DNA from: an uncultured Litoreibacter sp.
Lineage (GTDB): Bacteria > Pseudomonadota > Alphaproteobacteria > Rhodobacterales > Rhodobacteraceae
Direction of reading: 5' to 3'
Length of the DNA stretch: 64,000 bases
Assembly: GCA_947492995.1 (NCBI GenBank)
Contig: CANLOU010000002.1
Location: 806,001-870,000 of the forward strand
The first letter of the stretch is position 1, and each line of letters begins with the position of its first letter. A program made the translations under genes and the position numbers. The notes beneath the pieces are model-generated. The model ran no database searches, was not told the origin of the DNA, and saw only the letters and a list, made by a program, of their open reading frames with translations. Positions 38,720 to 47,290 of the stretch are shown here, piece after piece.

Positions 38720-39448
38720 ATGTCTGACGATCCGAACATTTCCAAGCCCAAGCGGCGTAGCCCCGGCCTGTTCTCGCGACTGCGCGGCAACTTTCTGGCG
38801 GGCCTTATCGTTGTGGCCCCGATTGCGCTGACGCTCTATCTGATCTGGACAGTTGTCGGCTGGATTGACGGCTGGGTCTGGCCGTTCATCCCGCAGGCCT
38901 ACCATCCCGAAGAGCTGGTCAACCGGCTCATGGGCAATCCCGAAGACCGCATCAAGGTCAATGTGCGCGGCATTGGGGTGGTCATTTTCCTGATCTTTAC
39001 CGCCGTGGTGGGCTGGGTCACCAAAGGATTTTTGGGACGCTCATTGCTGCGGGTCGGCGAAAATCTGGTGGACCGCATGCCGGTGGTCCGCTCGGTCTAC
39101 TCGGGCGTCAAACAAATTGCCGAAACCGTGTTTTCGCAGCGCGACACCTCTTTCGACAAGGCCTGTCTGGTGGAATATCCCCGCCGGGGCATCTGGGCGA
39201 TCGCCTTCATCTCGACCGGCGCCAAAGGCGAGATCGCGTCGGGCATTCCCGTTGATGAGCCCAAAGTGTCCGTGTTCCTGCCAACAACGCCAAACCCGAC
39301 ATCGGGGTTTTTGCTGTTTGTGCCTAAATCCGACGTCATCGAATTGGACATGACGGTCGAAGACGCGGCAAAATTGGTGATCTCTGCCGGGCTTGTCTAC
39401 CCCAATGACAAGAACCCCTCGGAGCCGCCAAAACTGGCGGCGGAGTAG
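38720..39448 (+). CDS. DUF502 family membrane protein
   Basis: 242 residues. Two helices, FLAGLIVVAPIALTLYLIW and VVIFLIFTAVVGWVTKGFLG, are followed by the conserved VRSVYSGVKQIAETVFS and a C-terminal domain. Function unknown; relatives occur widely in bacteria. It ends directly before two tandem palindromes that would end the transcript. Confidence 0.85.
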   Translation: MSDDPNISKPKRRSPGLFSRLRGNFLAGLIVVAPIALTLYLIWTVVGWIDGWVWPFIPQAYHPEELVNRLMGNPEDRIKVNVRGIGVVIFLIFTAVVGWVTKGFLGRSLLRVGENLVDRMPVVRSVYSGVKQIAETVFSQRDTSFDKACLVEYPRRGIWAIAFISTGAKGEIASGIPVDEPKVSVFLPTTPNPTSGFLLFVPKSDVIELDMTVEDAAKLVISAGLVYPNDKNPSEPPKLAAE

Positions 39449-41851: not shown

Positions 41852-43663
41852 TTATTCCTCGATCCACCACACATCCGGCAGATAGCCCGGCCAGTCGCCA
41901 TACGCGGGCACCACGTCGGGGCGTTTCAGCTCCTTGTTATGGGCCAGACGTGATACGGGCGAGTACCAGATCGGGATCACGTAGCGGCCCGACATCAAGA
42001 TGCGGTCCAGCGCCTTGACGGCGGCCAGATAGTCTTCGCGGCTCTCCACGGTCAGCATTTCCTGCACCATCGCGTCAATCGCAGGCACTTTGATGCCCGC
42101 CATGTTGCGCGACCCTTCGGTGTCGGCGGCATCCATCCCCCAATAGGCCAGCTGCTCGTTGCCGGGGCTCAGCGACAGGCCGCGGGTGAAATAGGTCATG
42201 TCATAGTCAAACGTGTCCGTGCGCTCGCGGTATTGCGCCTGATCTATAGCATCGACAGTGGCGAAGACCCCGATGCGTTCAAGCGCCTGGGTGTAGATGT
42301 TCAGGATCGCCAGCACCTCGGACGAGCCAGAGCTGGCCAGAATGGTGAAATTCAGCGGCTTGCCTTCGGGGCTGGTCATGACACCGTCTTTGATCTCCCA
42401 ACCGGCCTCTGCCAGCAGGTCCTGCGCTTTGACGATGCCCGCGCGGTTGCGTTGCGAGCCGTCTGAGACAGGCAGCGAATACCCCTCAATTGCGCCTTCG
42501 GTCAGGCTGTCCTTATGGGCCTGCAAAAGCTCCAGAACTCTGCCCTCAGCCGGGCCGTGATCCATCCCCAAAACCGAGTTGGAGAAATACGAGGTGATCC
42601 GCGGCTGTTTGCCGCCATTCAGCTTGTCGTTGATAAACTCGAAGTTGAAGGCTTGGATCATGGCTTCGCGCACGCGGTAGTCCTTGAAGACGTCGCGGCG
42701 CGTGTTCATCACGAAACCGGTCATCCCTGAGGGGCGCTTATGCGGAATCTCGGCCTTGATGACGTCGCCATTTGTGACGCGCGGGAAACCGAACTGCTGG
42801 TCCCATTTGGCCGAGTTGCTTTCGCGGTGCGATGTCAGCTCGCCGGCTTTGAAGGCCTCAAACATCGCCGTCCCATCCGAGAAGAACTCCATCCGCACGT
42901 TGTCGATGACGTTGGTGCCTTTGCGGAACGGGACGTTGACGCCCCAATAGTCCGGGTTGCGTTTCAGGGACACAAAGCGGCCCGCCTCAAAATCGTCGAT
43001 CACATAGGGCGCAGACGAGATTGGCACCTCGTCCAACCCGCTTTCCGCAAAGTCTTTGCCCTCCCATTGGGCTTTCTTCAGGATCGGACGCATGCCCATT
43101 ATCAGCGCCAATTCGCGGTCTTGCACGTTGAAGGTGAACTTCACCGACCGCGCGCCGGTTTGCTCGGCGGATGCAACTTTGGCCCAGCTGCCGCGATACC
43201 GGCCATGCCCTTCGGTGCCGAGGGTTTCATAGGACCAGATGACGTCTTCCACGGTCACAGGGGATCCGTCCGAGAATCGCGCCTCCTCGCGCAGGACAAA
43301 TTCCACAGAATCGCCCGCGTCAGAGACATCTATCGATTCGGCCAAAAGCCCGTACAAAGTGAACGGCTCGTCCAGCGAGCGGCCCATCAGGCTCTCATAT
43401 GCCAGAAAGCGCAGCTGCCACGGCACGCGGCCTTTCTGGATGTGCGGGTTCAGGCTGTCGAAGCTGCCAACCTCCCCCGCAGAGACGCTGCCTCCAAAAG
43501 GCGCGTCAGGGTTCACATACGGCAACGACACAAAGTCTGGTGGTAGCGCGGGCTCGCCATACATAGCTATGCCATGCTTTGGCTCGGCAAATGCCGCTGC
43601 CCCGATCAAAGCCGTTGACGCCACGGCAGCCGCCGCCAGATTTTGGAAAAACACTGATCTCAT
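41852..43663 (-). CDS. YejA-like family 5 extracellular solute-binding protein
   Basis: 603 residues with a signal peptide to about residue 26 (AAAFA). FVSLPYVNPDAPFGGSV, FDSLNPHIQKGR and APYVIDDFEAGRFVSLKRNP are family 5 (peptide/nickel/microcin C) motifs, and GFVMNTRRDVFKDYRVREA fits YejA. The ligand is likely an oligopeptide. No permease or ATPase gene lies next to it, so its yejBEF-type partners are elsewhere or missing. Confidence 0.85.
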   Translation of the reverse strand: MRSVFFQNLAAAAVASTALIGAAAFAEPKHGIAMYGEPALPPDFVSLPYVNPDAPFGGSVSAGEVGSFDSLNPHIQKGRVPWQLRFLAYESLMGRSLDEPFTLYGLLAESIDVSDAGDSVEFVLREEARFSDGSPVTVEDVIWSYETLGTEGHGRYRGSWAKVASAEQTGARSVKFTFNVQDRELALIMGMRPILKKAQWEGKDFAESGLDEVPISSAPYVIDDFEAGRFVSLKRNPDYWGVNVPFRKGTNVIDNVRMEFFSDGTAMFEAFKAGELTSHRESNSAKWDQQFGFPRVTNGDVIKAEIPHKRPSGMTGFVMNTRRDVFKDYRVREAMIQAFNFEFINDKLNGGKQPRITSYFSNSVLGMDHGPAEGRVLELLQAHKDSLTEGAIEGYSLPVSDGSQRNRAGIVKAQDLLAEAGWEIKDGVMTSPEGKPLNFTILASSGSSEVLAILNIYTQALERIGVFATVDAIDQAQYRERTDTFDYDMTYFTRGLSLSPGNEQLAYWGMDAADTEGSRNMAGIKVPAIDAMVQEMLTVESREDYLAAVKALDRILMSGRYVIPIWYSPVSRLAHNKELKRPDVVPAYGDWPGYLPDVWWIEE

Positions 43664-43742
43664 TTTGGCAACGCTCCCTCATGCCCTTATTCTTATTGAC
43701 CCTGACCGTAATGAGGTAAGCGAGCCTTTTCAAACTTTTAGC

Positions 43743-43771
43743 TTGGCGCAAGGCAACTCATTGCTTATAAA
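43743..43771 (+). promoter_or_regulatory. Candidate sigma-70 promoter for the small RNA
   Basis: -35 TTGGCG (43743-43748), exactly 17 bases of spacer, -10 TATAAA (43766-43771). It points right, away from the YejA-like gene, and is followed within 80 bases by a terminator and no open frame. Start site expected near 43778. Confidence 0.6.
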
Positions 43772-43777
43772 GACCTT

Positions 43778-43853
43778 ACTGCTCGATAGGTTTCTTGCCT
43801 GTATGAAACCTGCCTCAATAACTTAACACCAGCTTCGGCTGGTGTTTTTTTTT
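43778..43853 (+). ncRNA. Candidate small RNA, about 75 nt
   Basis: It has a promoter, a stem-loop and a terminator in a row. The 5' hairpin pairs AGGTTTC (43788-43794) with GAAACCT (43805-43811) around the loop TTGCCTGTAT. A single-stranded CCTCAATAACTT linker leads to the terminator hairpin. Pyrimidine-rich CCT stretches in loop and linker could pair with ribosome-binding sites. No peptide of note is encoded. No known family could be matched by eye. Confidence 0.5.
43825..43853 (+). terminator. Rho-independent terminator with UUCG tetraloop
   Basis: Stem AACACCAGC (43825-43833) with GCTGGTGTT around TTCG, then nine T in all. It is the strongest terminator in the window. Nothing protein-coding on the plus strand precedes it for more than 4 kb, which is why it is assigned to the small RNA. 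Confidence 0.85.
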
Positions 43854-43874
43854 GGTTTGGGCGTAGGGTGGGCT

Positions 43875-44654
43875 ATGGCTGATGCGCTCCACCTGACCCC
43901 ATTGCTGACCCTTCATCTGCACCATCATTATTTCTACGATCCCAACCGGCTCGTGGATGATGTCGTGCCGGCTCTGCAGTTCGACGCAGATCCCGAGACC
44001 TCCAGGGCGCTTTTCGGCGCCAATATCCGGACACATATGACGCCCAACTCGGTTGCGTTCTTTGCCCCAGAGCACGCGGAGCTGCCCTCCGAGCTCCATT
44101 ATGTTCTTTCCGCCAAGACGCCTGTGCTGTTTCAGGTGACCGCCATGGGCGGTAGTTCGTGGCGGCCGGGTCAGGTTCTGGATCTCACGATTGAGCCCAA
44201 TGAGTCGGTTGATCTGGTTGTCACCCATGACGTTTGCGACGCCCCGCAGAAGCCCTCCGCATTCGCACGCCTCACCATTCTCACCGCTTCGGCCAATCCC
44301 CGCCAAACCGTTGAGATCGCGTTCGAGGCCCTTTCGGTTCAGCGCGAGATCTTTGTCCAAGGGCAAGACCCGCACCTGCATCTCGACAAAACCCGGCTCA
44401 GTTTGGGTGCCGACATGCTGCTTTCCCTGTCTCCCGTAGCGGTGACATTGCCGAACGGCCAAAAAGCGATGCGCTTCGATCTGCCGGACCCTTGGCCTTT
44501 GCGCACCGTCAAGCCAGACACAGATGCGCCGTTATGGCTGAATTTCATTGGCACAGACGGCCATCCGAACCGGATCCTCATCCCCGAAGCGCCCCTGCAC
44601 CATGTCACGCGGCCCGACGGGACATGCGTCGCGAGCACCTTCATCCGCCTGTGA
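43875..44654 (+). CDS. Unknown protein
   Basis: 259 residues from the ATG at 43875 (MADALHLTPLLTLHLHHHYF), with a GGGTGGG ribosome site. No signal peptide and no membrane helix. The sequence is rich in beta-forming stretches and His residues (HLHHHYFYDPNRLVDD). A later LDLTIEPNESVDLVVTHD has an adhesin- or tail-fibre-like feel, but no named family fits. It starts 21 bases after the terminator. Confidence 0.65.
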   Translation: MADALHLTPLLTLHLHHHYFYDPNRLVDDVVPALQFDADPETSRALFGANIRTHMTPNSVAFFAPEHAELPSELHYVLSAKTPVLFQVTAMGGSSWRPGQVLDLTIEPNESVDLVVTHDVCDAPQKPSAFARLTILTASANPRQTVEIAFEALSVQREIFVQGQDPHLHLDKTRLSLGADMLLSLSPVAVTLPNGQKAMRFDLPDPWPLRTVKPDTDAPLWLNFIGTDGHPNRILIPEAPLHHVTRPDGTCVASTFIRL

Positions 44655-44759
44655 ACAAGCACAATCACCCAAATGTCATGGCACATCGGTTAAGACTTGT
44701 GTATTTTGCACCTGCAGCACATATGCGCCGCAGCGCAACAAGATGAAGGACGCACGCCC

Positions 44760-45533
44760 ATGTCGATCACAGGAAAAACTGCCGTTGTCACCGGATCAAA
44801 CTCAGGCATCGGCCTCGGGATCGCATGGGAGCTGGCCAAGGGCGGCGCGAATGTGGTGTTGAATTCCTACACCGACAGCGAGGACGACCACGCGCTGGCC
44901 GCCGAGATCAGCAAAGAGACCGGCACCACTGCGCGCTATATCCAGGCAGACCTGTCCAAGGGTGCAGCGGCGCGGTCGCTGATCGAGAAAGCCGGTCAGG
45001 TCGATATTCTGGTCAACAACGCAGGCATCCAGCACGTGGCCCCAATCGACGAGTTTCCGGCGGAAAAATGGGACATGATTATCGCAATTATGCTGTCCAG
45101 CGTTTTCCACACCACCGCAGCCGCCCTGCCCCTGATGCGCAAAGCGGGTTGGGGGCGCGTCATCAACATCTCCTCTGCCCACGGCTTGACCGCCTCCCCC
45201 TATAAATCGGCCTATGTCTCGGCCAAGCACGGGGTTGTCGGGATGACGAAAGTGGTGGCGCTGGAGACCGCGCGGGAACCGATCACCGCAAACGCGATTT
45301 GCCCCGGCTACGTTCTGACACCGCTGGTTGAGGCGCAAATCCCCGACACAGCCAAGAAATATGACATGTCCGAGGAAGAGGTCACCCAGAAGGTCATTTT
45401 GGAACGCCAGCCGTCAAAAGAGTTTGCCACGACAGAGCAGCTTGGCGGCGTGGCGCAGTTCTTGTGCTCTGATGCGGCGGCACAGATCACCGGAACCACA
45501 ATCAGTGTGGATGGGGGATGGACAGCGTTGTAA
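44760..45533 (+). CDS. bdhA: 3-hydroxybutyrate dehydrogenase
   Basis: 257 residues of the classical short-chain dehydrogenase family. TGSNSGIG at 11-18 binds NAD, NNAG follows near 86-89, and the catalytic triad is Ser139, Tyr152 and Lys156 (YVSAKHG). PSKEFATTEQLGGVAQFLCSD and NAICPGYVLTPLVEAQI match 3-hydroxybutyrate dehydrogenases closely. It oxidises 3-hydroxybutyrate to acetoacetate in poly-hydroxybutyrate turnover. The ATG at 44760 starts the conserved domain. Confidence 0.92.
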   Translation: MSITGKTAVVTGSNSGIGLGIAWELAKGGANVVLNSYTDSEDDHALAAEISKETGTTARYIQADLSKGAAARSLIEKAGQVDILVNNAGIQHVAPIDEFPAEKWDMIIAIMLSSVFHTTAAALPLMRKAGWGRVINISSAHGLTASPYKSAYVSAKHGVVGMTKVVALETAREPITANAICPGYVLTPLVEAQIPDTAKKYDMSEEEVTQKVILERQPSKEFATTEQLGGVAQFLCSDAAAQITGTTISVDGGWTAL

Positions 45534-46850: not shown

Positions 46851-47002
46851 ACCCAGTTTGTGCGTATGCGCACCAAGCGTGGCATATTCTCACGCCGTGG
46901 TGAATTCAGGTTATCCAGAACTTGGCGCATACTGATCTCATCAAACGGCATAACAGCCAAACACACACAATCGCCGCAAGGCACCAAACTGGAGAATACA
47001 TC

Positions 47003-47290
47003 ATGAAAACCATCATCGCATCCGCCGCTCTCGCCCTGTCCTTCGCTGCTCCTGCAGCTGCAGACGTCTCGAACGCCCAAGCGTTTTTCGCACTGGGCAA
47101 CGACTCCGCTGCAGAGCGCATCGTGGGTGAAACATCGACCGGCGATGTCATCGGCTCCACCCGCCAGCTGGCGCTGACAAATGACAGCCCGGCAGAGAAC
47201 TTTGTGAACTTTGACCGCGCACGGAACGTCGACGTATCGAAAATCCGCGCCATGTTCGCGCTGACAAACGACTCGCCTGCCGAGAACTAA
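47003..47290 (+). CDS. Small secreted protein with NDSPAE repeats
   Basis: 95 residues. A good GGAGA ribosome site lies 8 bases before the ATG. The signal peptide ends AAPAAA (residue 20). The mature part repeats one short motif three times: FFALGNDSAAE, LALTNDSPAEN and MFALTNDSPAEN, the last at the C-terminus. No cysteines, no known family. The motif spacing (about 30 residues) suggests a repeat that binds metal or another partner; this is inference. A strong terminator follows. Confidence 0.75.
   Translation: MKTIIASAALALSFAAPAAADVSNAQAFFALGNDSAAERIVGETSTGDVIGSTRQLALTNDSPAENFVNFDRARNVDVSKIRAMFALTNDSPAEN

Follow-up and report, generated by a model that had tools for sequence, protein, structure and literature searches.

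Background

In the Rhodobacteraceae, the long leader of the dcw gene cluster is itself a source of small RNA (sRNA). In R. sphaeroides, UpsM (RSs0682) is an sRNA that arises from the terminated dcw leader upstream of mraZ, and RNase E cuts it only when an RpoHI/HII-dependent factor, presumably a partner RNA, is present (PMC5089854). The partner was later named StsR, a 72-nt RNA under RpoHI/HII control that binds to UpsM and stimulates its cleavage (PMC8307010).

Here we describe an sRNA gene, designated the 43778 RNA, from a window of 64,000 nucleotides on a contig of an uncultured Litoreibacter sp. The gene is conserved, as is its complementarity to the mraZ/dcw leader. It is likely that the 43778 RNA acts in trans by pairing with the dcw leader and UpsM, opening them to RNase E, and that it is, most plausibly, the ortholog of StsR.

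Methods

Copies of the locus were sought by BLASTN with positions 43743-43860 of the window as the query, and a covariance model (R1) was built from the resulting alignment (A1) of 37 copies. Conservation profiles were drawn from a set of 50 genomes in which copies were chosen by their strict core; 52 loci were checked and no family copy was lost, the set leaving out a duplicate locus of the Litoreibacter genome and L187, a borderline match outside the family that is without the core. Gene neighbours were surveyed at 51 loci (the Litoreibacter genome counted twice), mostly over 1.5 kb per side. A search for MraZ in 28 further genomes succeeded in 27 of them, with three extra loci (second matches to the same gene) excluded; adding the Litoreibacter and C. 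sphaeroides genomes gave 29 leaders of 800 bases, which were compared with the first 48 nt of the Litoreibacter RNA. The 118 loci fetched for SorY served as control DNA for the counting of complementary 12-mers. The C. sphaeroides genome used here encodes a PufX identical to that of R. sphaeroides, and its SorY and SorX-like loci, at 1,632,645 and 2,598,232, lie within 10 bases of the published 1,632,642 and 2,598,224.

Results

Structure of the 43778 RNA gene

The unit comprises four features:

43743..43771, plus strand: promoter, TTGGCG (-35, with CTTGG conserved), 17 nt and TATAAA (-10), supported by conservation in 50 genomes
43778..43853, plus strand: 43778 RNA gene, supported by model R1 matches, identity over +1..+39 and fold (z -4.47)
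43787..43812, plus strand: hairpin 1, invariant, eight pairs and a 10-nt loop UUGCCUGUAU, supported by fold and conservation
43825..43853, plus strand: intrinsic terminator with a UUCG loop and nine T, supported by direct reading, terminator scan and a covarying stem

Read directly, the -35 element occupies 43743-43748 and the -10 element 43766-43771. The arms of hairpin 1 are AGGTTTC (43788-43794) and GAAACCT (43805-43811), which the predicted fold extends to eight pairs (43787-43794 with 43805-43812), and the terminator consists of a stem (43825-43833 with 43838-43846), a TTCG loop and a T run at 43845-43853. These are the places where the initial annotation had put the promoter, hairpin, linker and terminator. 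The predicted fold of the 76-nt RNA has an energy of -23.2 kcal/mol, compared to -11.9 for shuffled sequences, and none of 200 shuffles equalled it. The terminator pattern is unexceptional in this DNA (16 found in 10 kb against 10.1 expected), and the promoter did not pass a sigma-70 scan that demands a T at the last -10 position. By pattern alone the unit is suggestive; it is accepted as a gene because it is conserved. Positions 43778..43853 (+) are thus strongly supported as an sRNA gene of approximately 72-76 nt, which bears out the earlier proposal of a non-coding RNA gene running from about 43778 to the terminator. The length predicted to the end of the T run is 74-78 nt across the 50 genomes and 76 nt in C. 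sphaeroides.

That proposal had also leaned on the lack of a plus-strand open frame for more than 4 kb ahead of the terminator. This holds for plausible genes, the last of which ends at 39448, but not for a mechanical plus-strand frame (43239-43826) that lies antisense to the YejA-like gene and extends into the RNA.

Conservation across the family

BLASTN recovered one copy each in 37 genomes of the family, that of Litoreibacter among them; in 24 genomes from other families it found no copy. At E 0.01, model R1 matched 384 of 394 family genomes and 345 of the 347 good ones; eight of the ten missed are less than 90% complete. In an order-level draw it matched all 121 genomes, every one from the same family, and in a class-level draw at E 0.001 it matched six of 337, namely five family members and one genome outside the family (G565), a borderline match of 31.8 bits, with 311 of the genomes lacking a match counted irrespective of their kinship. 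Copies were present in all eight named genomes chosen: Ruegeria marisrubri, Phaeobacter sp. J2-8, Sulfitobacter sp. F26204, Roseovarius marisflavi, Leisingera sp. ANG59, Maritimibacter alkaliphilus, Rhodobacter ruber and Paracoccus sp. IB05. The initial annotation had proposed a covariance search in relatives and had named a lack of conservation in close relatives as what would speak against the gene; family-wide copies and a covarying terminator were found.

Over positions +1 to +39, 49 of the 50 genomes carry the same sequence, and a single base differs in the remaining one. Identity across the set rises from 70% at -1 to 100% at +1, so that 43778 is the likely transcription start, as had been proposed from the sequence of the window. 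Conservation upstream is concentrated in the promoter (C-TTG-G, 90-100%; TAT, 98% at each base), and sequence downstream of the terminator is not conserved. None of the eight pairs of hairpin 1 varies among 20 distinct sequences, and the hairpin is therefore beyond the reach of covariation, while the terminator stem shows two-sided changes in five of the eight pairs counted. The whole structure scored 0.237, compared to 0.062 when shuffled. No Rfam 15 family matches the 43778 RNA at its gathering score, the sole match in the window being a tRNA elsewhere, and routine annotation would thus miss it.

Pairing with the mraZ/dcw leader

Two segments of the RNA are complementary to the leader, the second of them tentatively assigned:

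43796..43811, plus strand: nt 19-34, in the loop and 3' arm of hairpin 1, with unbroken complementarity over 16 bases to this genome's mraZ/dcw leader
43779..43785, plus strand: tentative second contact, nt 2-8 (CTGCTCG), complementary to CGAGCAG located 46-60 nt further down the leader

In Litoreibacter, nt 19-34 pair with the leader sequence AGGUUUCAUACAGGCA, and the segment complementary to the mraZ/dcw leader as a whole spans nt 19-36. Contiguous perfect complementarity reaches at least 11 nt in 28 of the 29 leaders, at least 12 in 26 and at least 15 in 24, the exception being the Maritimibacter leader (L205), with only 8 contiguous bases. Complementary 12-mers were absent from both strands of the 118 control loci (1,802,086 bases), where about four were expected by chance. 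In the leader alignment, the pairing site is a conserved island with variable flanks on either side. The duplex of nt 1-48 with the Litoreibacter mraZ leader has a predicted energy of -46.5 kcal/mol (z -5.47) and that with C. sphaeroides UpsM, where the pairing contains one mismatch, -41.3 kcal/mol (z -2.36; -2.2 on repeat), both against 60 mononucleotide shuffles. Cofolding gains approximately 16 kcal/mol in Litoreibacter and 9 in C. sphaeroides. The CGAGCAG motif is present in 26 of 29 leaders as part of a longer conserved element, and the cofold prediction does not use its contact with nt 2-8.

When UpsM of C. sphaeroides is modelled as a 206-nt RNA whose 3' end is the terminator, the predicted duplex covers approximately nt 58-73. 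Given the 130-nt product of 206-nt UpsM, RNase E would cut near nt 76 (within a few nt either way, as these are gel sizes), and the published cut thus lies a few nt beyond the predicted duplex. The dcw leaders (e.g. L173 and L194) also contain a strongly conserved GCGAGCAGACATCCCCCCAGGTGGCGCG element and a conserved AGTGGCAGC terminator loop, neither of which is explained by pairing with the RNA.

Genomic neighbours

The surroundings of the gene are as follows:

41852..43663, minus strand: YejA-like family 5 solute-binding protein, divergent neighbour (PF00496)
43705..43733, minus strand: candidate divergent promoter of the YejA-like gene, TTGAAA (43733-43728), 17 nt and TACGGT (43710-43705), from the conservation profile
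44697..45533, plus strand: short-chain dehydrogenase, usual downstream neighbour (PF00106, from 44757)

The divergent arrangement with the peptide-binding-protein gene, already pointed out for this window, is kept in 50 of 50 genomes, 43 of which have the dehydrogenase on the downstream side. Conserved bases upstream of the 43778 RNA in the 50-genome profile fit a divergent TTGAAA-N17-TAnnnT pattern, and 43705..43733 (-) is likely the promoter of the YejA-like gene, its -35 box being 9 nt from that of the RNA. Between the RNA and the dehydrogenase lies a plus-strand gene (43875-44654) that has no Pfam match and occurs at that place only in this genome among the 50 compared. Elsewhere in the window, 46922-47290 (+) encodes a small, secreted-looking protein with (F)ALxNDSPAEN-like repeats and no Pfam match.

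SorY, SorX and other sRNAs

Membership in the SorY family (RF02651) was considered and rejected. The 43778 RNA resembles SorY in general build and matches its model weakly, at 23.1 bits compared to a gathering score of 111, whereas in C. sphaeroides SorY has a gene of its own at 1,632,645 (G095:C4:1632645-1632727), where it scores 115 bits and passes the gathering score. Pairing of the 43778 RNA with C. sphaeroides SorY, the SorX-like locus, CcsR and a stretch at 858 kb gave z values of -0.46 to +1.29, and the two Litoreibacter entries of the same test gave -0.32 and -1.43. The 20-base core of SorY is present exactly in at least 118 genome stretches (L038-L155), nearly all of them Rhodobacterales among the matches listed. 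Litoreibacter has a SorY-like locus (G000:C2:514122-514188) of 45 bits, far below the gathering score, and second SorY-like loci of 31-32 bits occur in Litoreibacter (G000:C1:619125-619190) and C. sphaeroides (G095:C4:2598232-2598301). The latter coincides with SorX, and SorX and SorY therefore share the CTCCCTGTTGGA core.

Discussion

Comparison with StsR

On balance we favour the view that the 43778 RNA is the ortholog of StsR (formerly RSs0827). StsR measures 72 nt and the 43778 RNA 74-78 nt between predicted ends; each has its own promoter and terminator, and both have the UpsM/dcw 5' UTR as target, for the 43778 RNA by in silico prediction. UpsM itself is that target, a terminated leader, whereas the 43778 RNA is a separate gene and its proposed partner. 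StsR pairs with rpoE mRNA 10 nt after the GUG start. StsR depends on RpoHI and RpoHII, while the promoter of the 43778 RNA is without the T at -9 that is critical for RpoHI and has an A there. TTG and TAT are present at the spacing of RpoH promoters, but sigma-70 promoters have the identical spacing, which therefore does not discriminate.

The name RSs0827 implies a locus other than that of the 43778 RNA. The C. sphaeroides copy lies on chromosome 1 at 1,443,995-1,444,071 (-) with the same neighbours. RSs numbers track position along this chromosome (RSs0682/UpsM at approximately 694.7 kb, RSs1624 at 1724.5 and RSs2461/SorX at 2598.2), CcsR motifs being found at 692 kb beside mraZ; SorY, which we take to be RSs1543, would be a further point fitting this order. 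RSs0827 would therefore be expected near 853 kb, compared to 1444 kb for the 43778 RNA, which thus does not lie where StsR is expected, an argument that is indirect because the naming scheme is itself deduced. Since RSs0019 maps to chromosome 2, StsR may instead be encoded on that replicon, again not at the locus of the 43778 RNA. A placement of RSs0827 beside RSP_0827 near mbfA was dropped: SorX (RSs2461) lies at RSP_0847, and RSs numbers are therefore not RSP tags. PF02615 (LDH), tried as an anchor, gave no match. A full-text search with strings of the 43778 RNA and its complement returned no relevant paper, one Listeria paper sharing a 14-mer. In Paracoccus denitrificans, the 43778 RNA may correspond to 'intergenic 60' or '134' (PMC5107571).

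Alternative explanations

The strongest alternative is that the 43778 RNA is a second sRNA directed at UpsM and the dcw leader; StsR would then bind another part of UpsM and have its gene elsewhere, either around 853-858 kb on R. sphaeroides chromosome 1 or on the second chromosome. We think this possible but rather doubtful. Besides the positional logic of the RSs numbers, which points away from 1444 kb, it draws on one C. sphaeroides feature:

L189:8068-8139, plus strand: 858.1-kb intergenic terminator with eight T, identified by its terminator and its match to UpsM

Over 11 contiguous bases this terminator is complementary to UpsM nt 15-25, and the stretch scored z -1.81 in the duplex test that gave -2.2 for the 43778 RNA; it is possibly StsR, or else the 3' end of a gene that stops at L189:7995. 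However, the 858-kb match GGGACAGTGAA occurs in one of the 29 leaders, and at least 11 contiguous bases are shared with the 858-kb stretch by three leaders, compared to 28 for the 43778 RNA. Moreover, by a simple pattern, none of the nine terminator-like sites within 830-890 kb has an upstream TTG-N19-21-[TC]AT promoter, whereas the 43778 RNA has one. In a more specific form, which we consider unlikely, the 43778 RNA would not be StsR but an undescribed, near-invariant sRNA and the ancestral, family-wide partner of the dcw leader and UpsM, acting by loop-started strand displacement. It would then couple cell division to whatever fires the promoter that stands back-to-back with that of the peptide-binding gene.

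The remaining explanations look to the neighbouring genes or to the RNA itself. The initial annotation had suggested, as a guess, that the RNA might regulate transporters as AbcR-type RNAs do, and that its CCU stretches could bind ribosome sites. AbcR1 and AbcR2 have CU-rich motifs in a hairpin loop and linker; the 43778 RNA is like them in the CCU motifs of its loop and linker, and the YejA-like gene is its divergent neighbour in 50 of 50 genomes. Regulation of YejA-like or other transporters at their ribosome-binding sites is nonetheless very improbable. Of the six Rfam families with matches up to E 10, none is of AbcR type, and duplexes with the yejA leader score no better than chance (mean z +0.4, 1 of 50 below -1.65; 20 mononucleotide shuffles per locus on total duplex energy, with which a short seed could be missed). 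Linkage to the gene can be explained by the divergent promoters, and the CCU stretches fall within or next to the dcw pairing region, with nothing to show that they bind ribosome sites. The same-strand dehydrogenase downstream in 43 of 50 genomes could instead make the RNA a leader or attenuator of that operon, in the manner of UpsM. This we regard as very improbable, given that the dehydrogenase is missing from the stretch examined in seven of the 50 genomes with the RNA core unchanged, that the downstream gene is convergent in two (L020 and L023), that the sequence after the terminator is not conserved, and that, in the same pairing test, duplexes with the downstream sequence score close to chance (mean z -0.32, 5 of 50 below -1.65). 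A small protein gene starting at the ATG at 43803 (MKPASIT) is scarcely credible: although the MKPAS start is the same in all 50 genomes, MKPASIT is kept in 33, while 11 frames read through the terminator and two stop at MKPAS. The end of the frame varies and is therefore not under selection.

Proposed mechanism

We return to the reading of the 43778 RNA as a trans-acting partner of the dcw leader, probably the ortholog of StsR. Transcribed from its own promoter in Litoreibacter, the RNA would pair through nt 19-36 with the long mraZ/dcw 5' leader and with UpsM. A portion of the RNA's 5' arm (AGGUUUC) recurs in the leader target GGUUUCAUACAGGC, and pairing can therefore begin at the loop and replace that arm. 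In the proposed sequence of events, the leader would nucleate on the loop of hairpin 1 and then displace the 5' arm. If the RNA works as published for StsR, pairing would make an adjacent site in UpsM and the dcw leader accessible to RNase E, Hfq taking part, and dcw expression would be lowered when the RNA promoter is on, in stress or stationary phase.

Conclusions

Judging from its sequence and that of the leaders, the 43778 RNA probably helps control cell division. In the literature searched, control of dcw by a leader-acting sRNA is described for one species, R. sphaeroides. A near-invariant RNA together with a matching leader site would turn such control into a general feature, open to direct testing, of a large family that includes marine and photosynthetic bacteria: the roseobacters, Rhodobacter and their relatives. 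If the 43778 RNA is not StsR, it would be a second, more widely conserved UpsM-directed RNA.
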